Positions 19,175 to 51,406 of a stretch of 52,081 nt of DNA are shown here, one piece after another (the stretch's first letter is position 1; each line of letters starts with the position of its first letter). The stretch covers positions 1 to 52,081 of the forward strand of contig JAESUM010000081.1 of assembly GCA_016763075.1 (NCBI GenBank), given 5' to 3'. The DNA is from Pseudomonadales bacterium. GTDB lineage: Bacteria; Pseudomonadota; Gammaproteobacteria; Pseudomonadales; JAHRWD01. The position numbers and the translations under genes are program-made. The notes below the pieces were generated by a model that was given only the letters and a program-made list of their open reading frames with translations, searched no databases and was not told where the DNA came from.

Positions 19175-20611
19175 GTGACTAACGAAAACTTCGAAGATAC
19201 ATTGCTGGATTGGAAGAAACGAGAAACCTTAGCTGAAGCGATGATCCCGATGATCGGTAAGCTTGTACGGGAAATGAATGTAGTTACCTATATTTATGAT
19301 CGAGCACTCGTGAATCACTCTGTGATTGGTATTTTGAAGACTCACCGGTTCGCTCGAAAGGTTGCCGGAACTGAACTGACTGTTTTCGATACTTATCCAA
19401 TTATCAAAACTCTTAGCGAGCTTGATTTAGGGCCTGCGCGTATCGATGTTGCGAAGCTTGCCAGCAAGTATGACGGTACCGGTACCATTGAAGATTTTGT
19501 TAAAGCAGAAGTTGCAGACCTTATTGGTAAACGAACTCCGCCGATTGATGAGCCACAAGATGTTGTGTTATATGGTTTCGGTCGAATTGGGCGATTACTG
19601 GCTCGACTGCTCATTGAAAAAACCGGAGGAGGGGATCTTCTTCGCCTGAAAGCAATTGTTGTACGTAAAGGTGGTGCGCCTAGCGATATTAAAAAACGTG
19701 CCAGCCTGCTGCGCCGTGACTCAGTTCATGGGCCGTTCCAAGGTACTATTTCTCTCGATGAAGAAACCAGTGAAATAGTAGCGAATGGAACACGTATAAA
19801 AGTGATCTACTCCAGTGCGCCTGAAGATGTAGATTACACCGAATATGGAATCAACAACGCTATCGTCATCGATAACACTGGCGTATGGCGTGACGAAGAA
19901 GGCCTTTCTCGTCACCTTAAGGCTAAAGGGGTTTCCCGAGTGCTGCTCACAGCTCCGGGCAAAGGCGATATCACCAACGTTGTATTTGGTCTTAATGACG
20001 ACAAAATTGGTGATCAAGCCATCATTTCCGCAGCATCATGCACAACCAACGCAATAGCGCCTGTGCTCAAAGTTATGAATGATAAATACGGCCTACAAAG
20101 TGGTCATGTTGAAACGGTTCATGCGTATACCAATGATCAAAACTTACTCGATAACTACCACACCGGTAGCCGTCGTGGCCGAGCTGCACCCCTTAATATG
20201 GTGATCACAGAAACCGGCGCGGCAACCGCAGTGGCGAAAGCCTTGCCAGAGCTAAAAGGTAAGCTAACCGGTAATGCTATTCGTGTTCCGACGGCTAACG
20301 TTTCGTTGGCTATCATGAACTTGAAGTTAGATAAGACACCGAACGTAGAAGAGTTAAACAGTTATTTAAGAGACTGTGCGCTTCACTCTAACTTGTCTCG
20401 CCAAATTGACTACGTGAACTCGACTGAAATTGTATCTAGCGATTTCGTCGGTTCTGATCATGCCGGAGTGATAGATTCAGAAGCAACCGCGGTCACGCCA
20501 GACGGCGCAGTTTTGTATGTTTGGTATGACAATGAATATGGCTATAGCTGCCAAGTGATACGAGTGCTTCAGCGTATGGCGGGTATTTCTTATCCTGTTA
20601 TACCCTCTTAG
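19175..20611 (+). CDS. gap: Glyceraldehyde-3-phosphate dehydrogenase, long N-terminally extended type
   Basis: Oxidative phosphorylation of glyceraldehyde-3-phosphate (or its reverse in gluconeogenesis), cytoplasmic. Residues 1-125 form an extra helical N-terminal region (NENFEDTLLDWKKRETLAEAM), so the protein is 478 residues where ordinary GAPDH is about 335. The Rossmann motif is YGFGRIGRLLARLL. The active-site cysteine is C289 in SAASCTTNAIAP. GSRRGRAAPLNMVITETGAA and the C-terminal WYDNEYGYSCQV are intact. It starts with GTG behind AAAGGGTCGG. The extended type and its position just before nqr match Pseudomonas. It is probably gluconeogenic in that group; here that is inference. Confidence 0.96.
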   Translation: MTNENFEDTLLDWKKRETLAEAMIPMIGKLVREMNVVTYIYDRALVNHSVIGILKTHRFARKVAGTELTVFDTYPIIKTLSELDLGPARIDVAKLASKYDGTGTIEDFVKAEVADLIGKRTPPIDEPQDVVLYGFGRIGRLLARLLIEKTGGGDLLRLKAIVVRKGGAPSDIKKRASLLRRDSVHGPFQGTISLDEETSEIVANGTRIKVIYSSAPEDVDYTEYGINNAIVIDNTGVWRDEEGLSRHLKAKGVSRVLLTAPGKGDITNVVFGLNDDKIGDQAIISAASCTTNAIAPVLKVMNDKYGLQSGHVETVHAYTNDQNLLDNYHTGSRRGRAAPLNMVITETGAATAVAKALPELKGKLTGNAIRVPTANVSLAIMNLKLDKTPNVEELNSYLRDCALHSNLSRQIDYVNSTEIVSSDFVGSDHAGVIDSEATAVTPDGAVLYVWYDNEYGYSCQVIRVLQRMAGISYPVIPS

Positions 20612-20620
20612 TCAAGGTTG

Positions 20621-20642
20621 TAGCGTCATTTAAGTGGCGCTA
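20621..20642 (+). terminator. Short hairpin after gap
   Basis: TAGCGTCATTT and AAGTGGCGCTA pair over 11 positions with two G-T pairs, giving a tight hairpin ten bases after the gap stop. TTTCGCTT follows. It may partly end gap transcripts before the nqr promoter. Confidence 0.4.
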
Positions 20643-20661
20643 TTTCGCTTCTAACAGGGTA

Positions 20662-20691
20662 GAAATTATATGGTTCTAACTATATAATTTC
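20662..20691. promoter_or_regulatory. 30-bp near-perfect palindrome at the likely nqr promoter
   Basis: The arms GAAATTATAT and ATATAATTTC are perfect inverted repeats, and the 10-base centre GGTTCTAACT continues the symmetry with a single mismatched pair. TATAAT at 20683-20688, a consensus -10, lies inside the right arm, 108 bases before nqrA. The stem is too AT-rich to be a terminator. It is therefore a candidate operator for a dimeric regulator of the nqr operon. No such regulator is encoded nearby. Confidence 0.5.
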
Positions 20692-20796
20692 CGCGCAAAT
20701 TTTTGCCGTTAGGCTCAGCGCAAAGTCAGGTTTTTCTGGCTTGCATAGAGTTGATACCTCCCGGTTAATCAGGAATAGTGTTTTGGATTCATTCAT

Positions 20797-22137
20797 ATGA
20801 TCAAGATCAACAAAGGGTTAGATCTTCCGATAAGCGGTGGTCCGTCGAGCGAGATTGACGACAGTCGTAAAGTTCGGTCGGTTGCTCTTGTAGGATTAGA
20901 CTACGTTGGTTTGAAGCCAACCATGCAAGTCACGGTTGGTGAGTCGGTAAAATTAGGACAAGTCCTATTTACCGATAAGAAAAACCCAGGCGTTAACTTT
21001 TGTGCGCCTTCAGCAGGCACCGTTTCTGCCATCAATCGTGGTGCAAAACGGGTGTTGCAATCAGTCGTCATTGAAATTGAAGGGGATGCCGAAGAATCTT
21101 TCGATGCATATTCAGAAGATCAAGTTTCAAAATTATCTGGCGATCAAGTTCGCAAGAACTTATTGAGATCAGGGTTGTGGACTGCTTTTCGAACCCGGCC
21201 ATACAGTAAGGTTCCTGCGGCAGATAGCTCTCCTGCGTCTATATTCGTAACCGCAATGGACAGCGAGCCGTTGGCTCTTGATCCTACCGTATACATCCGC
21301 GAGCATCAGTCGGCATTTCAGCTTGGCCTTGAAATCGTTTCAAAACTGACATCAGGCAAAACTTTTGTGTGTCATGGCGATAACTTTCCGTCGATTGGCT
21401 CATCAGCAAGTATTGAACTGCAACAGTTTTCTGGGCCGCATCCTGCTGGCTTAAGCGGAACGCACATTCACAACCTAGATCCTGTCAGCGAAACCAAGAC
21501 AGTTTGGACGATTGGCTACCAAGATATTATCGCTATCGGTAAATTGTTTTCTGAAGGCAAGATTTTTGTTGATAGACTAATCTCTTTGGCTGGCCCGCAG
21601 GTTGAAAAGCCACGCCTAATTCGTACTCGTATTGGCGCAAGCATCGATGAAATCGTCGCTGGTGAGCTTCATCCTGCCGATAACCGCGTTATATCCGGCT
21701 CAGTACTTTCTGGCCGTAAAGCAGTGGGCGCTGGCGCATATTTGGGTCGCTATCACAACCAAGTGACCGCGCTTAAAGAAGGGCGTGAACGAGAGTTGTT
21801 GGGTTACCTAACAGCGGGTAGTGATCGTCATTCTGTTACCGGAATTTACATCTCTAAATTCATGAAAGCATTGAAGCTTCCAATGACCACTTCCACGAAT
21901 GGTAGCGAGCGCCCGATGGTGCCGGTTGGTTCGTACGAAGCCGTCATGCCGTTGGATATTTTGCCATCGCATTTGCTTCGCTCACTGGTTGTTGGTGATA
22001 CCGATACCGCTCAGAAACTTGGTTGTCTTGAATTGGACGAAGAAGATTTGGCGCTTTGTACCTATGTGTGCCCAGGCAAATACGAATTCGGACCTATCCT
22101 TCGAGACAATCTCACTACCATCGAGCTTGAAGGCTAA
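20797..22137 (+). CDS. nqrA: Na+-translocating NADH:quinone reductase subunit A
   Basis: Peripheral cytoplasmic subunit of the six-subunit Na+-NQR, which oxidises NADH, reduces ubiquinone and pumps Na+ out. The 446 residues match the family. The N-terminus [16 protein letters not shown] and the HIHNLDPVS segment, followed by [18 protein letters not shown], are typical. There are no membrane helices. It is the first gene of nqrABCDEF-apbE-nqrM, all on one strand, with nqrB 47 bases away. The likely promoter lies in the palindrome upstream. Confidence 0.98.
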
Positions 22138-44175: not shown

Positions 44176-46119
44176 TTAATTCGATAGCGTTTCAGTCGAT
44201 AGGGCCTTAGATAGTACATCGGTTAAGTCATCCATCAAAAAAGGTTTAACCAAGCAGGCTACGAAGACATAGTCGTCGTAATTGGCCATTACTGGGTCAT
44301 TTGAGTAGCCGCTTGAAACAATCGCTTTTACACTCGGGTCCAACTGCTTGAGCTTTGCCATGGCCTCTTTTCCGCCCATTCCGCCAGGAATCGTCAAATC
44401 CATGATTACCGCATCGAACGGTTCTCCTGTATTCATTGCTGTTTCATATAAAACCAACGCTTCACTACCGTCTTTTGCGTGTATTACGGTATAACCACAC
44501 CGGCTGAGCATGGCATCAGTTACGGACCTAATCATCAGCTCATCATCCATAATCATGACCTTGCCAGCGCCATGGTGTCCGCCACGTACCTGACTTGTAT
44601 CCGTTACGGCGGTTTTTACTGCGGGTAAAAAAAACGTAAAACAGGTGCCTTCGCCTAGTATTGAGCTGCATTCAATACTGCCCCGGTGTTTATGAATAAT
44701 CGATTGGGTAATGGCCATTCCTAATCCGCTACCTTCTTGTTTAGTAGAAAAATAAGGATCGAATATTTTCTCTAATAAACTGGATTGAATACCTACACCT
44801 TCATCGGTAATGGCTACGCAAACGTAGTCGCCGATTTCTATCTGAGGCGCATTATGGTCAGCTTCGAGCTTGGTGAAGTTTTCACAGACAATATGAATGG
44901 TCCCACCTTCAGGCATGGCCTGACGTGCATTGAGCACAATATTTTGAATCACTTGGTCTATTTGGCCGCGGTCAATATCTGCTGACCATAATTCCCGATC
45001 TTGCTCGATGCGACATGCAATGCCTGAACCGGTAAGGGTGAACTCTGCGGACTCGCGAACAACGTCGTAAATCGAATTCACCTCAAGAATAGGAGCGCCA
45101 CCTTTAGAAAATGTCAGTAATTGCCTGGTCAGTTTTCCTGCTCGTATAGCGGCACGCTCAGCCGCTTCTAATAAATCGTATGACTTGTGAATTGTGTCCA
45201 TCTTTATTCGAGCAAGGCTAATATTCCCCATAATGCCTGTAAGAATATTATTGAAATCATGAGCAATGCCACCGGCCAAAATACCGACTGACTCAAGTTG
45301 TTTTGTTTTTGCTAGTTCTGCATTAACCTTGTTTTTCAGTGTGACGTCACGAAATACCAGCACGGTACCGATCACTTCGCTATCACGATTGCGTATCGGT
45401 GCTGCACTATCTGCAATACTGTGTTCAGCACCATCCTTAGATATTAACGCGGTGTGATTAGCCAACCCGATGATACGCCCAGTAGCGAGTACTTTCGCCA
45501 CTGGGTTTTCGCAAGGCTTGCGGGTTTTCTCGTTAATGATATTAAACACTTCGCTCAGTGGTTTCCCCCGTGCATCGCGCGCTGACCAGCCTGTTAATTC
45601 TGACGATATTTTATTTAGCATCGTTACGTTTCCATCTAGGTCGGTCGCTATCACACCATCGCCTATACTATTTAACGTAACTGATAGTAATTCTTTCTCT
45701 TTTTCAAGATCTCTTATCGAAGCATTTAATGTCTGACGAAGGTGCCACTTTTCTGCTGATGAATTAAGTGACAGTAGCAATACTTTAGGGTCAATTGGCT
45801 TTTGCAAAAAATCTACTGCACCTATTTTTAATGCTTCTACCGCACTTTCAACATCACCATGAGCTGAAATAATAATGACTTGAGTGGCGGGGTATAACTC
45901 CATTACATGCTGGCATAATTCGAAGCCATCCATTTCTGGCATACGTATATCAGTAACTACTATTTCTACTGGGCGTTCTTTTAGTGTTTTTAAAGCTTCG
46001 GGCCCAGAGGTGGCAGTCTCAATAATGTATTGCTCTTTTCTTAACGAAAAAGCGAGTAACTCGGTGATTCGAGGTTCATCATCAACGAGTAAAACTCTAA
46101 TGTTTTTGTCGTTATTCAT
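44176..46119 (-). CDS. Hybrid two-component protein REC-PAS-histidine kinase-REC
   Basis: 647 residues, soluble. An N-terminal receiver (1-120, D57 in VVTDIRMPEMDG, lysine in FLQKPI) leads by a coiled coil into a PAS domain (about 145-265, LLSVTLNSIGDGVIATDLDG). An NtrB-like kinase follows, with H in GGIAHDFNNILTGIMG, then NIVLNARQAMPEGG, DEGVGI and GSGLGMAITQSI. A C-terminal receiver ends it (MIMDDELMIRS, phospho-acceptor in AVIMDLTIPGGMGG). Its start overlaps the end of the giant kinase gene by eight bases, so they are translationally coupled. The N-terminal receiver is the natural target of the giant kinase, and the hybrid then passes phosphate onwards. No output regulator is seen. Confidence 0.93.
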   Translation of the reverse strand: MNNDKNIRVLLVDDEPRITELLAFSLRKEQYIIETATSGPEALKTLKERPVEIVVTDIRMPEMDGFELCQHVMELYPATQVIIISAHGDVESAVEALKIGAVDFLQKPIDPKVLLLSLNSSAEKWHLRQTLNASIRDLEKEKELLSVTLNSIGDGVIATDLDGNVTMLNKISSELTGWSARDARGKPLSEVFNIINEKTRKPCENPVAKVLATGRIIGLANHTALISKDGAEHSIADSAAPIRNRDSEVIGTVLVFRDVTLKNKVNAELAKTKQLESVGILAGGIAHDFNNILTGIMGNISLARIKMDTIHKSYDLLEAAERAAIRAGKLTRQLLTFSKGGAPILEVNSIYDVVRESAEFTLTGSGIACRIEQDRELWSADIDRGQIDQVIQNIVLNARQAMPEGGTIHIVCENFTKLEADHNAPQIEIGDYVCVAITDEGVGIQSSLLEKIFDPYFSTKQEGSGLGMAITQSIIHKHRGSIECSSILGEGTCFTFFLPAVKTAVTDTSQVRGGHHGAGKVMIMDDELMIRSVTDAMLSRCGYTVIHAKDGSEALVLYETAMNTGEPFDAVIMDLTIPGGMGGKEAMAKLKQLDPSVKAIVSSGYSNDPVMANYDDYVFVACLVKPFLMDDLTDVLSKALSTETLSN

Positions 46120-49100
46120 ATATAGCCTCGTATTCTAACGATGTCGATGCATTTCCAAGAACAGGCATGGTCACCTGAAATAAGCTACCGATTCCAGCCT
46201 CACTGGTTACGGTTATCGAAAAATTAAATTCATCAATCAAGCCATGCACAATAGATAAACCTAGGCCTGTTCCCTCACCTACTTTTTTCGTTGTGAAAAA
46301 CGGATCCATGCATTTTAATCGCGTTCGATCATTCATTCCCACGCCGTTATCTTGAACTTCTAGTATTACCGCATTGTTATCGTCTGATAGGTAAAGCCGA
46401 GCATCTATTTTTTTCTGGTAATCATGAAGGTTTGTCTTCAATTTACTATCCACCGCATGGCGAGCATTGGATAGTAAATTGACAACAATTTGTTGGAACT
46501 TTTGCGGGCTAACCAAAACATGTGGTAGGTCTTCTTCAATATGCAATTTTAATTCAATCTGGTGTTGGCGGAATTGCTCGATGAAGAACACCATGCTTTG
46601 ATTAAATGGCTCAACAATGTCGATGCTTTCAATAATTAGGTTGTCATCATTTCTGCCATAGGCACGCATATTTCTAACAATGCCCGATGCCCTATCGACT
46701 TGCTCGATGATGTCTTTGGCAAAGGGGATTAGCTCTGCTTGGTCAAAAGCATCACTCGCACATTCTTCTTGAATGATACGCGAAGCGACCTGAATGATTT
46801 GAAGTGGTTGTCCTAATTCGTGAGCAATACCTGTGGCCAGCTCTCCCATAGATGCAAGCCGGCCGGCATGGGTGAGTTCCAACTGTTTACGTTGCAGTTC
46901 TTGGGTTCTAGCTTCTATGGTGGATTCTAAGTCACGATTCATTGCTTGAATGGTTTCTTGGGCCGCAATGGTCTCTTGCAATAAGTTGGAGTTTTGTAAG
47001 GCAATGGCAGATTGAGCCGTCAGTAAATCCGCTTGTTTTACCTGAGCCGTGGTAAATACAGCATCAATAAAACTATTTTCAAAGTACAGCACGCCAAGTA
47101 CTGTTTTGTGCATAACGATAGGTAAGCAAAGTATAGAGCGTAGTTTGCACGCTTGAACCACCGCATCGGTAACGAAATCGCCTGTTTCGAAGGCATTATC
47201 TAATATTAAAAGTTCTCCAGAATTAAATACGTAGTTGGCGATGCCAGAACTCAGATTTTCGAGATTGAAGGTGAAATCATCTTTATCGGTTACCGTAATG
47301 TCTTCATATTTAATCGCTTTTAAACGCGGAACTAATACGTTATGTTCGGGTATTAATAAGTAGCCAGTTTTTGCACCTAGCCGTGCCATTACAGCCGTTA
47401 GAATTGTGCTTTGTAATTTATTAAGATCAAGCTCTGAAGTGATGGTTTTGATAGCGTCAAATAGGAACTGCACATCCAGTTTACTGTCCATACTAGATTC
47501 AGATGTCAAAACTGAATGCTGTTCGCTTGGAATGTTTTGTTCTGGGCTTCGTGCTTCATCTGCGTTTAATGTCATTATGCGAGTAGCAACGCCACAGCTT
47601 TGATACAAATTATTGGCCTGCTTACGATAACTATCACTTGAATGGTGCTGACATTCATCGAGGTACTCAAACAACCTCTCGTTTAAAAAAGCCTCCAATA
47701 AAACGTAATTCTCGTTATGGGCACTGTCAATGGCATCCAAATATAGGCTTCTTATTTCTTTGAAATCACCTTGTTTGACGGCGGTTTCGGCTTCCATAAG
47801 CATCGTATAAGGGATTAGCATAGGCCCATGAGAAGCCCATTCTAGAACCTTTTTTTGATAAAACTCTTCGTCACCCTTAAATCCAATTTGTAACCCAACT
47901 AAATACCGAAAGATATACCATAATTTTTCAACAATACCGGTAGACAGTCCTGGCAAAAAACTTTCGGCCTGGGTCAGATGAAACTCAGCTTCTGTGTAAC
48001 GGTGATGGTAATAGGAAACGATGCCGGAAAAGGTGTGGTAACAGGCTACGGAAACCGACATTCCCGCGGCACTCCATTGTTCAACTAATGCCGGAATTTG
48101 TGGGTCAGGAATACCTTCTTTTTGGTTTGGTGTTTGATCTCGGCCGAAAAGTAGAGGCCGAAGACTGAGCCTCATGGCTTCGCTCAGTGATAAAGGCAAC
48201 GCCAAATTACATTGCTTAGAAAATGTATGGGTATTTTTTAACTCGGCATCGAGTGTTGGGATATCGTCTGCCTGGACAAAGGCAAACCACTGCTCGACAC
48301 ATTTCGCGAGGCCCCCATATCGTAATTCACCGCACCTCAGACCTTCGGACGCGGCGGCTGCAGCATAATCACGCAGCTCGGTGACCGGGTGTCGCATATG
48401 CATCACTGCCCACGATAAGGCTCCTTTTGATTTTACCGAGCCAAAGCTATCGGGGAATTGCAGCATCAATGTATTGGCAGCGGCTTCATATTCGTAGGCC
48501 AAAACGTATTCGTTCTCAATGCATAAAATATAACTGATACATGCAAGCGCGTAACAAACGAAATCGTCATTGCCAAATTCGAAAGAGCAATTCATTGCTC
48601 TAAAAGCAGTTAGTCGGGTCATTTCAATCTGGCCGCTAAAAAACAAATACCCTAGCAGCTCACCATAGAGCTTATGCAGCAAAACACCGAGCTGATTATT
48701 TGCTCTCGGTAGAGCAGTTATTTGCTCAAGTAGCCTGTTGTCGGAATGGTATATGCGGCTTTCCATTGCGGAAATTTCTTGTTTGATTTCAGTTTCGTCC
48801 GTTGGCAACGGACGGCCTAATAATATCAGCGCTTGTGATGCAATATTAATAGCAGCATTTAAATCACCGAATACAGCATGGGCGACGGACTGTTCGTATA
48901 AAAATTCGGCTTTCTCTACATCGTCCCGTACGTATTTAAGGGATCGTTCGACAATGACACTTGCTTCACTCTGGTTGGCATTGATTATCGAAGCATGTGC
49001 CAGTTTTTTGTGTAATGACAGCATGAATTCATAATGGCTATCCCACATGGATTCGGTGCTTAGTTTTGCGGCTTCATTTAGGTAGTGGATGCCAGCTTCC

Positions 49101-51406
49101 AGCGCTAAACTTTCTAAGGCTGCTGCACCGGCCAGATAATTGAATTTAGCCTCTTCAATGCGCTCCGTTACAGGTGCTTTTTTGCTTCGGCTTCGAGCTA
49201 AGTGTTCAGCTATGGTAAAGAATAAAGAAGTCGCTCTGTGAGCGTCTGGGTGGTGTTGCTGTATTTCATTGACGCGCTCAATGTAGTTACGCGCAATACG
49301 CCGATGATACTGCTTGGTTTCATCTATTGTTAAATACTTGGCGGCAGCAGCTTGTATTTGATCGTGAAAAAAATAGGTAAATTCTTTGTCATGTAAAAGA
49401 ATACGTTGATCAAATACATCAATAAATAAGTTGTGAAGATCGCTAACCGAAAGCTGAGCCACTTCTGCAAGATCGACGAGTTTGAATTGAGCGCCAAGTA
49501 ATGCACCGGCAGCCAATAAATTTTGAATATTCTCCGGGAGATTTTTAAGTTTTTCGATAAATATATCGGTAGCGTTTGCAGGGATATCTAGGTGTTGAAT
49601 AGCATCCTCATTCCAGACCCAATTGCCCTCTTCAGATATTTTTAACCCTTCTTTATCGTGAAGCCAACGTAGGCTTTCGCAGATATAAAGTGGATTTCCG
49701 GCATTGACGGAAAAAATGGTTTTGGTGAGTAGTTCGGACCGAATGGGCTTTGTGTTTAGGATGTATGCGACCATCTGATTCGTCGCTGTAATATCAATGG
49801 GTTCTAAGCGTAGGTTAAGTATTTCGACCGATGAGCGCTCAGCTACTTTTTCTAGCTTATTGATTCTATGGGTGTCATCTACCTCGTCGTAGCGATAGGC
49901 ACCAATCAGCAATAGGTACGGGTGTTTTTCTGGTGTGGCAAGGATCAGCTCAAGTAGGTCGAAGGTTGCGTGGTCGCACCATTGCATATCATCAATAAAC
50001 AGAACTATGGGGTGCGCTTTCGTTGCTAAGCAGCCCAAAAAACGTGTAAACACGTCGTTAAACCTACTCTTTGCATCTATGGCGGGCAGCTCTTGTGGGG
50101 TAGGCTGTGGGCCAATGATTCTCTCGAGTTCAGGTGCGATATGGGTGAGTAGCTGCCCGTTGGGTCCAAGCACTGCAAGTATGCTTTCATGCCACGCAAG
50201 CACTCTGGTTTGATTTTCTGTCATTATTTGACGAATGAGTCGATTGAGCGCCTCGACCAGTGTGCTGTAGGGCAATTGGCTTGCAAACTGATTGAACTTC
50301 CCCGAGGTATAGTAACCACGCTGGGCGACGATGGGGAGTTCTAGCTCTTGTACCAACCGAGTTTTACCAATGCCTGATAAACCAGATAGCATGACCAATC
50401 CAAATTTTCCGGTGCTGACACGCTGGTATTGGTCTAACAGGCTTTTTTGTTCGGTGTCTCGCCCTACGATTATTGACGGGATCGAAATATGGTAACTAGC
50501 TTCGTGCTGTTTTAACGTAAATGAGGGGATAATTACTCGCGCATGATCGGTGTTGTCCGCTTTTATGGTGTCTAAACAAGTACGTAAATCAGCACTTAGC
50601 CCAACCGCACTCTGGTAGCGTTTTTCTCTTTTTTTGCGTAGCAAGGTATCGATAATATCGCTTAATATTAAGGGGCATGAAGTATTTAACTCCGTGAGCT
50701 GGCGAGGTTCTTCTGCTAAGTGAGAGTGCACAATACTAAGAGAATCGTTTGACAAAAACGGCGGTGCGCCTGCAATGCATTCATACAAAACAATGCCAAC
50801 CGCATATAGGTCAGTCGAGTAGCCTTCATAGCTTTTGATTCGCCCTGTCATTTCTGGCGCAAGATACGGTAGGGTTTGGCGTAAGTAGTGGGCGTTATCT
50901 ATAAATTGACTGAGCTGTATGCTGTCGATGATTTGTACTTCGTCAACAAGCTGAACCCGAATTGGGTTCTCCAAGATAAGAATATTATTGGGTTTGATTG
51001 CTTTGTGAGTAAGTGTGGCGCGGTGCCTGCTAGCTATAGCGTCAACTAACGCAATGCCAATTTCGAGAATCGTACGAATTGAAATCTGTTTATTTTCTGG
51101 TAACCATAGGCTTAATAATTGCCCGTTAGGGTAAGGTTGTATTAGCTGAAGGTTGGTGCCGTCTGTTTGTAATTCTGGTATTGATAAGTCAGGTATATTT
51201 AATGTGCGTAGATGCTGTAGTTGCAGTTCGATGTGGTCTTTTACGTCAGGGCTTACAAAATCAGCATGTATTTGCTTGATAAGAAACTCAATACCGGATT
51301 TACGTTCCTGAGCCAAATAGGTATTGGCGACCAGACTACGGCCAAGAAGTTGGGTGCTTTTGAAGCGTTTTCGCGCAGATCTTTTTGGCATACAGTAATC
51401 AATCAT
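46112..51406 (-). CDS. Giant multidomain signalling protein: kinase-like domain, AAA ATPase, helical repeats, GAF, histidine kinase
   Basis: 1764 residues, soluble. Residues 15-285 have the Ser/Thr kinase fold (K44, APE at 183-185, DLYAVGIVLYECIAGAPPF). The catalytic loop reads THKAIKPNN with Ala136 where the HRD aspartate should be, and the metal-binding DFG is DEV (155-157). The ATPase has Walker A GLSGIGKT (342-349) and Walker B IVLFIDDMQW (467-476). A long helical TPR-like region follows (about 600-1270), then GAF (about 1290-1450), a coiled coil, and a complete histidine kinase with H1529 in GIAHELGQPL, NLLSNARHAV, DNGVGM and GTGLGLSI. It resembles the cyanobacterial/myxobacterial STPK-AAA-GAF-HK family. 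The start could also be ATG 51391. It feeds the overlapping hybrid kinase gene. Confidence 0.92.
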   Translation of the reverse strand: MIDYCMPKRSARKRFKSTQLLGRSLVANTYLAQERKSGIEFLIKQIHADFVSPDVKDHIELQLQHLRTLNIPDLSIPELQTDGTNLQLIQPYPNGQLLSLWLPENKQISIRTILEIGIALVDAIASRHRATLTHKAIKPNNILILENPIRVQLVDEVQIIDSIQLSQFIDNAHYLRQTLPYLAPEMTGRIKSYEGYSTDLYAVGIVLYECIAGAPPFLSNDSLSIVHSHLAEEPRQLTELNTSCPLILSDIIDTLLRKKREKRYQSAVGLSADLRTCLDTIKADNTDHARVIIPSFTLKQHEASYHISIPSIIVGRDTEQKSLLDQYQRVSTGKFGLVMLSGLSGIGKTRLVQELELPIVAQRGYYTSGKFNQFASQLPYSTLVEALNRLIRQIMTENQTRVLAWHESILAVLGPNGQLLTHIAPELERIIGPQPTPQELPAIDAKSRFNDVFTRFLGCLATKAHPIVLFIDDMQWCDHATFDLLELILATPEKHPYLLLIGAYRYDEVDDTHRINKLEKVAERSSVEILNLRLEPIDITATNQMVAYILNTKPIRSELLTKTIFSVNAGNPLYICESLRWLHDKEGLKISEEGNWVWNEDAIQHLDIPANATDIFIEKLKNLPENIQNLLAAGALLGAQFKLVDLAEVAQLSVSDLHNLFIDVFDQRILLHDKEFTYFFHDQIQAAAAKYLTIDETKQYHRRIARNYIERVNEIQQHHPDAHRATSLFFTIAEHLARSRSKKAPVTERIEEAKFNYLAGAAALESLALEAGIHYLNEAAKLSTESMWDSHYEFMLSLHKKLAHASIINANQSEASVIVERSLKYVRDDVEKAEFLYEQSVAHAVFGDLNAAINIASQALILLGRPLPTDETEIKQEISAMESRIYHSDNRLLEQITALPRANNQLGVLLHKLYGELLGYLFFSGQIEMTRLTAFRAMNCSFEFGNDDFVCYALACISYILCIENEYVLAYEYEAAANTLMLQFPDSFGSVKSKGALSWAVMHMRHPVTELRDYAAAAASEGLRCGELRYGGLAKCVEQWFAFVQADDIPTLDAELKNTHTFSKQCNLALPLSLSEAMRLSLRPLLFGRDQTPNQKEGIPDPQIPALVEQWSAAGMSVSVACYHTFSGIVSYYHHRYTEAEFHLTQAESFLPGLSTGIVEKLWYIFRYLVGLQIGFKGDEEFYQKKVLEWASHGPMLIPYTMLMEAETAVKQGDFKEIRSLYLDAIDSAHNENYVLLEAFLNERLFEYLDECQHHSSDSYRKQANNLYQSCGVATRIMTLNADEARSPEQNIPSEQHSVLTSESSMDSKLDVQFLFDAIKTITSELDLNKLQSTILTAVMARLGAKTGYLLIPEHNVLVPRLKAIKYEDITVTDKDDFTFNLENLSSGIANYVFNSGELLILDNAFETGDFVTDAVVQACKLRSILCLPIVMHKTVLGVLYFENSFIDAVFTTAQVKQADLLTAQSAIALQNSNLLQETIAAQETIQAMNRDLESTIEARTQELQRKQLELTHAGRLASMGELATGIAHELGQPLQIIQVASRIIQEECASDAFDQAELIPFAKDIIEQVDRASGIVRNMRAYGRNDDNLIIESIDIVEPFNQSMVFFIEQFRQHQIELKLHIEEDLPHVLVSPQKFQQIVVNLLSNARHAVDSKLKTNLHDYQKKIDARLYLSDDNNAVILEVQDNGVGMNDRTRLKCMDPFFTTKKVGEGTGLGLSIVHGLIDEFNFSITVTSEAGIGSLFQVTMPVLGNASTSLEYEAIYE

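Follow-up and report, generated by a model that had tools for sequence, protein, structure and literature searches.

Whether the kinase domain at the head of a giant bacterial signalling protein still acts as a kinase, and what it would contribute there if it does not, is the question raised by the window, the whole 52,081-nucleotide stretch of Pseudomonadales DNA that was analysed. The protein, of 1764 amino acids, is encoded on the minus strand (46112-51406), as are all features of the window given below, and its reading frame and Pfam matches give the order pseudokinase, AAA_16 ATPase, long middle region, GAF, HisKA and HATPase_c. The ATPase domain covers residues 314-501 (49904-50467; E 3e-38) with intact Walker A (GLSGIGKT) and Walker B (LFIDDMQW) motifs. 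It is followed by a GAF domain (GAF_2/GAF) at residues 1326-1471 (46994-47431), HisKA at residues 1520-1588 (46643-46849), with the predicted phospho-acceptor His1529 at 46820-46822, and HATPase_c at residues 1634-1749 (46160-46507). The histidine-kinase boxes H, N, G1, F and G2 are all intact in a motif check, which bears out the description of both the ATPase and the histidine kinase as complete in a sequence-only reading of this DNA. The protein has no transmembrane region by a crude test (the highest Kyte-Doolittle mean over 19 residues is 1.69, for a segment starting at residue 1424, inside the GAF domain). A single-sequence structure model had a mean pLDDT of 35 and was unusable.

The protein-kinase fold occupies residues 17-265 (50612-51358; PF00069, 77.3 bits, E 1.7e-21) and carries the fold marks that had been reported for it: the beta-3 lysine Lys44 (51275-51277), APE at residues 183-185 and DLYAVG at residues 199-204 (50795-50812). 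The range previously assigned to it, 50850-51406, ends just past APE, and the second half of the C-lobe lies outside. The catalytic loop reads HKAIKPNN (residues 134-141; 50984-51007), with Ala136 in place of Asp, as claimed, and with Lys138 and Asn141 kept. The DFG position holds DEV (residues 155-157; 50936-50944). The claim that DFG is lost stands for Phe and Gly, which are replaced, and fails for the metal-binding Asp, which appears to be kept as Asp155; this Asp aligns with the DFG Asp in the family alignment. The assignment depends on that alignment, because a phmmer pairing with PDB 4eqm leaves Asp155 gapped and sets Glu156 opposite the DFG Asp. Measured against an active Ser/Thr kinase, the domain lacks the catalytic Asp and the alpha-C Glu but retains three residues, namely beta-3 Lys, loop Asn and DFG Asp; a kinase fold with at least one degraded catalytic motif places it among the pseudokinases.

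The loss is neither isolated nor an assembly error, both of which were ruled out by an orthologue and two paralogues that agree. Sequencing error is unlikely, since the only other genome available for the genus has an orthologue that also carries HKAIKPNN and DEV. The window genome contains four kinase-domain matches, of which two besides the window protein are giant relatives: C94 (a 1985-amino-acid frame), with HQGIKPSN and DDL, and C64, with HKGITPNN and DDL, interrupted by stop codons. The window protein, C94 and C64 are all without the catalytic Asp; the fourth match, C45, has HQDLKPEN and DFG. The third giant paralogue, of the Asp-less type and broken by stops, corresponds to L073 (G000:C64, about 19560-20984) and L009. 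L078 (G021:C61, 8116-9138), in an 86 kb contig, is probably another broken clade member; its two short fragments share 51% and 59% identity with the window protein. In L068 (G090:C57) the giant frame stops at 1481 amino acids and a same-strand frame of 766 amino acids with kinase similarity starts 22 bases before its end, which reads as a split gene, a frameshift or an assembly error.

Relatives were sought with the first 520 residues of the giant protein as query. Matches were found in 2 of 2 genomes of the family, 33 of 194 of the order, 19 of 369 of the class and 41 of 398 of the phylum, in 30 of 101 genomes of a second order of the class, and in two further families (2 of 2 and 5 of 5); E-value cut-offs varied among the searches, the genome draws overlap, and the family, order, class and phylum draws contain the window's own genome. 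A plasmid search yielded 222 records, 12 of which were examined, and a search of genome contigs gave one distant, partial relative (L005). From 239 ORF pieces, 19 without both parts (including the broken C64 copy and L005) were dropped to leave 220, and removal of 74 duplicates left 146 distinct rows with kinase and ATPase parts, the window included.

The catalytic Asp is present in 87 of these rows and absent in 59, one of which (L047) has Glu at the position; before the set was enlarged, 33 of 116 rows lacked it. Loss is frequent in the kinase-ATPase architecture, because the Asp state changes at least 15 times on the 146-row tree, a parsimony minimum tied to a rapidly built tree in which many deep forks are weak and several branches are long. 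Additionally, of the 110 rows that fall outside the window's clade, 36 have at least one of the Lys, the catalytic Asp and the DFG Asp replaced, a share comparable with the about 40% that a recent review gives for pseudokinases, with degraded motifs, in the bacterial Ser/Thr kinase family CP1 (O'Boyle et al. 2025, PMC12599244). A head without the Asp is thus no exception among proteins of this build. The catalytic Asp is kept in a separate group of seven rows (L153, L157, L122, L123, L160, L227 and L128), where GFG stands in place of DFG, the beta-3 Lys is Val or Ala and the loop Asn is His in 6 of 7. On these motifs it is a second stable pattern with other residues lost, and it resembles the DLHK kinase example given in the same review (PMC12599244).

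The window protein itself belongs to a supported clade of 36 rows, all without the catalytic Asp (SH-aLRT 99, 146-row tree), so that the loss noticed in one protein is common to the whole clade. A careful 62-row tree gave the clade a support of 100/100, with 22 of 22 clade rows lacking the Asp; neither tree used the four motif columns. L229 is a long branch, and its place within the clade is unsure. Resemblance to the window protein was one of the grounds for choosing the enlarged set, and 36 of 146 is therefore too high a share for the clade; as the rows are related, 36 of 36 represents one lineage and not 36 observations. In the second order, all 28 places scoring at least 350 bits (26 of 101 genomes) are without the Asp.

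The clade has one fixed pattern. The position of the catalytic Asp is occupied by Gly in 27 rows, Ala in 5, Ser in 3 and Asn in 1. None of the 36 clade rows has the alpha-C Glu (K in 21, Q in 13, R in 2; Gln62 in the window protein), compared with 76 of 86 rows keeping the Asp, and the Gly/Ser of DFG is gone in 36 of 36. Conversely, Lys44, Asn141 and Asp155 are each kept in every row, while all three are kept in 5 of 23 other Asp-less rows (Fisher p 5e-11, a descriptive value since the rows are related, and not a test). Lys138 is present in 34 of 36 clade rows versus 12 of 73 intact rows, and the APE Glu, alpha-F Asp and alpha-H Arg are retained throughout. In the 13-row branch of the window protein, 11 rows have an acidic residue after Asp155 (DEV, DEI, DDL, DDI, DDV) and the other 2 have His. 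The motif reads DFI, DFL or DFV in the sister branch of 22 rows. Another acidic residue, Asp161 (50924-50926), lies six residues past Asp155 in 30 of 36 clade rows and in fewer than 30% of intact relatives; it is missing from the five-row branch of the C94 paralogue. Tree-aware pair tests of Asp loss against loss of other site residues were not significant: supported branches gave 8 independent pairs, too few for such a test (the median p was at least 0.25 in the seven tests with listed results), and outside the clade the alpha-C Glu even leaned slightly in the opposite direction. Judged by its motifs, the clade is a stable lineage of predicted pseudokinases.

A shift of the catalytic Asp within the loop was considered and ruled out: no clade row has an acidic residue at positions 130-144. 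The domain would have to work by a non-canonical mechanism if it were an active Ser/Thr kinase, as in the dual-kinase model for such proteins. Some kinases without the catalytic Asp do have weak activity, and Lys44, Lys138, Asn141 and Asp155 are all retained here; the loop is nonetheless free of acid in all 36 rows, Asp161 is found in only 30 of 36 rows and is missing from the C94 branch, and constraint on the domain, taken relative to the ATPase, is weaker than in intact rows. We regard such activity as very unlikely, and the domain would not be expected to transfer phosphate to proteins by the usual route. The kinase fold might instead carry a new enzyme activity, such as AMP or glutamate transfer by analogy with SelO or SidJ, the precedents named in the review (PMC12599244), and this would fit the invariant nucleotide-site residues; the scan for a replacement residue covered acidic positions only, and we hold this possibility to be slight, a shade below that of a non-canonical kinase.

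If the domain is not an enzyme, it may or may not still bind nucleotide. It could be a purely structural pseudokinase that has given up nucleotide binding and offers a docking or dimerisation surface beside the ATPase. The absence of the alpha-C Glu and of the DFG Gly from all clade rows agrees with this, as does the grouping of CP1 with families that are nearly always without ATP binding; the same review adds, however, that some CP1 pseudokinases may keep it (PMC12599244). Since no clade row retains the alpha-C Glu, the partner of the beta-3 Lys, the case for ordinary ATP binding is weakened. Yet Lys44, Asn141 and Asp155, often lost in other Asp-less rows, are invariant in the clade, and a purely structural role is in our judgement unlikely. 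Nucleotide binding by the pseudokinase is probably retained on this residue pattern, and the proposed role as a sensor or docking head is plausible from the sequence.

Selection on the domain was examined by dN/dS. Twelve pairs were tried, and nine close ones had dS below 1.4 in both domains; these share rows and all come from the 22-row sister branch in the second order. Among them the kinase domain gave 0.010-0.139 and the ATPase 0.049-0.094, the kinase value exceeding that of the ATPase in 6 of 9. The sole usable pair on the window's side, L070/L068, gave 0.132 for the kinase versus 0.061 for the ATPase at a dS of about 1.8, near saturation; dS was undefined for the other two window-side pairs. 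Compared with its two nearest complete relatives, the window protein shows identities of 59% and 54% in the kinase, 62% and 56% in the ATPase and 53% and 49% in the middle region. At ATPase identities of 40-50%, kinase identity fell below ATPase identity by 14.3 points across 177 clade pairs, by 10.5 across 44 pairs of other Asp-less rows and by 4.2 across 1143 pairs of intact rows, the pairs not being independent. The kinase domain is under purifying selection, measured mainly in the sister branch. Because low dN/dS goes together with a wider kinase-ATPase identity gap than in intact rows, the domain is maintained under a constraint that is looser than, or different from, that of an active kinase. 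A decaying remnant without function might seem to explain the wider gap, and copies do decay, as the C64 paralogue broken by stops demonstrates. Low dN/dS in the sister branch and the occurrence of the domain across two orders with invariant site residues speak against it, and we consider it the least probable of the explanations weighed here.

The four front parts (pseudokinase, ATPase, middle/helical region and GAF) are present in all 28 long clade members besides the window, and what follows them changes. Identity to the window's histidine kinase is 63-68% in L065 and L066 and 23-33% in 24 others, and no histidine kinase was detected in L214 and L229, which have GGDEF and EAL behind the GAF domain (Pfam). 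Pfam analysis of the tails of 14 of the 28 long members found HisKA and HATPase_c in 12 and GGDEF and EAL in 2. The C94 paralogue and L069-L071 are histidine kinase-receiver hybrids with PAS domains, and L215 has the order histidine kinase, receiver, Hpt. The H-boxes are of the types IAHELGQPL, VSHDLKAPL, IAHQWRQPL, VAHEINNPL, MGHELRTPL and MSHEIRTPM. On plasmids, loci L156 and L158 also have the kinase-ATPase-GAF front end fused to GGDEF/EAL, by their record annotation 'EAL domain-containing protein'.

The swap of output is plain for GGDEF-EAL and for the added PAS and receiver domains. A swap of histidine kinase type is suggested by the H-box types and the drop in identity behind the GAF domain, part of which could be fast divergence. 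The pseudokinase head appears to travel with the ATPase, middle region and GAF and not with any one output. On domain order, the front end is a portable input module that would not be specific to histidine kinases. The idea of a head controlling a histidine kinase was thus too narrow, as the same front end precedes distant histidine kinases, histidine kinase-receiver hybrids and, in 2 of 28 long members, GGDEF-EAL. With outputs changing behind a constant front end, the dead kinase would seem to belong to the input side.

We therefore lean towards a regulatory role without catalysis: the domain would be part of a fixed input unit that sets output activity, and it probably still binds nucleotide. 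The pseudokinase would be the first element of the front end, followed by the AAA_16 ATPase, the middle region and GAF. The front end would sense a ligand or nucleotide state and respond by a change in the arrangement of ATPase and GAF, and this arrangement would in turn set the activity of the following output, here HisKA-HATPase, as domain order and gene adjacency suggest. On the same basis, phosphate from His1529 could pass to the receivers of the neighbouring hybrid histidine kinase (44176-46119), a protein of 647 amino acids with a receiver, PAS, HisKA, HATPase_c and a second receiver match (Pfam). Its gene and the end of the giant gene share 8 bases on the same strand, and it is a possible co-transcribed partner. 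A hybrid relative, 70.5% identical, lies directly downstream of the same-genus orthologue L065. An operon partner conserved clade-wide was not found among 16 loci; downstream matches of 25-37% identity occur in 6 other loci of the 16, that of L068 being possibly the giant gene's own tail, while L067 has a weak match far upstream and the closest relative, L066, has none. The relay would be a local proposal only, because a close hybrid neighbour was found in the same genus only.

A more specific version of the regulatory reading, which we put forward tentatively, is a nucleotide gauge that would bind Mg-ATP/ADP without phosphotransfer, as a fixed input with ATPase and GAF repeatedly plugged into different outputs. 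Regulatory pseudokinase domains are exemplified by JAK JH2. If the gauge reading were true, the clade would be a bacterial counterpart of such domains, with swappable outputs.

Comparable layouts are known. Two plasmid relatives are annotated 'trifunctional serine/threonine-protein kinase/ATP-binding protein/sensor histidine kinase', and for the window's clade the Ser/Thr-kinase part of such an annotation is very likely wrong. The cbSTKIII or HstK-type STK-GAF-HisKA proteins of cyanobacteria have the same order of kinase, GAF and HisKA, and the domain shuffling behind this kinase type has already been noted there; they are termed dual protein kinases, in a survey that left out proteins lacking catalytic parts (PMC2176072). 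The fungal hybrid kinase Chk1 of Candida likewise carries Ser/Thr-kinase-like, AAA_16 and GAF parts before its histidine kinase, and its function is altered without the kinase-like and AAA_16 parts (PMC9069115). Fungal Mak2 and Mak3 have kinase-like and GAF domains (PMC5383687). Chk1 and Mak2/Mak3 differ in being eukaryotic and receiver-fused, the comparison being one of domain layout.

Another close parallel is CP1, in which the kinase is joined to a predicted ATPase (COG3899) and frequently accompanied by GAF/FhlA or PAS; the family is described as having no transmembrane region and as occurring in cyanobacteria and proteobacteria (PMC12599244). The window protein has the ATPase, as judged by its AAA_16 match, and the GAF domain, a frequent and not universal feature of the family; its architecture matches CP1 on domain layout, as distinct from the family-specific residue constraints of the 42-family atlas. 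The architecture and the tendency to lose catalytic motifs are thus already published, as CP1; in the review, 'histidine kinase' appears once, in the introduction (PMC12599244). A literature search, with the primary 42-family atlas outside its reach, found no description of the 36-row clade, which may already be within that atlas. A CP1 example listed in the review, with VLIK, HKSLCPGN and DFS, comes near the window's pattern (PMC12599244). Unlike CP1, whose losses are described as varied (PMC12599244), the window's clade shows a single pattern, without catalytic Asp, alpha-C Glu and DFG Gly and with Lys, Asn and Asp invariant, and a lineage of this kind offers a cleaner test system for bacterial pseudokinase function than scattered single losses.
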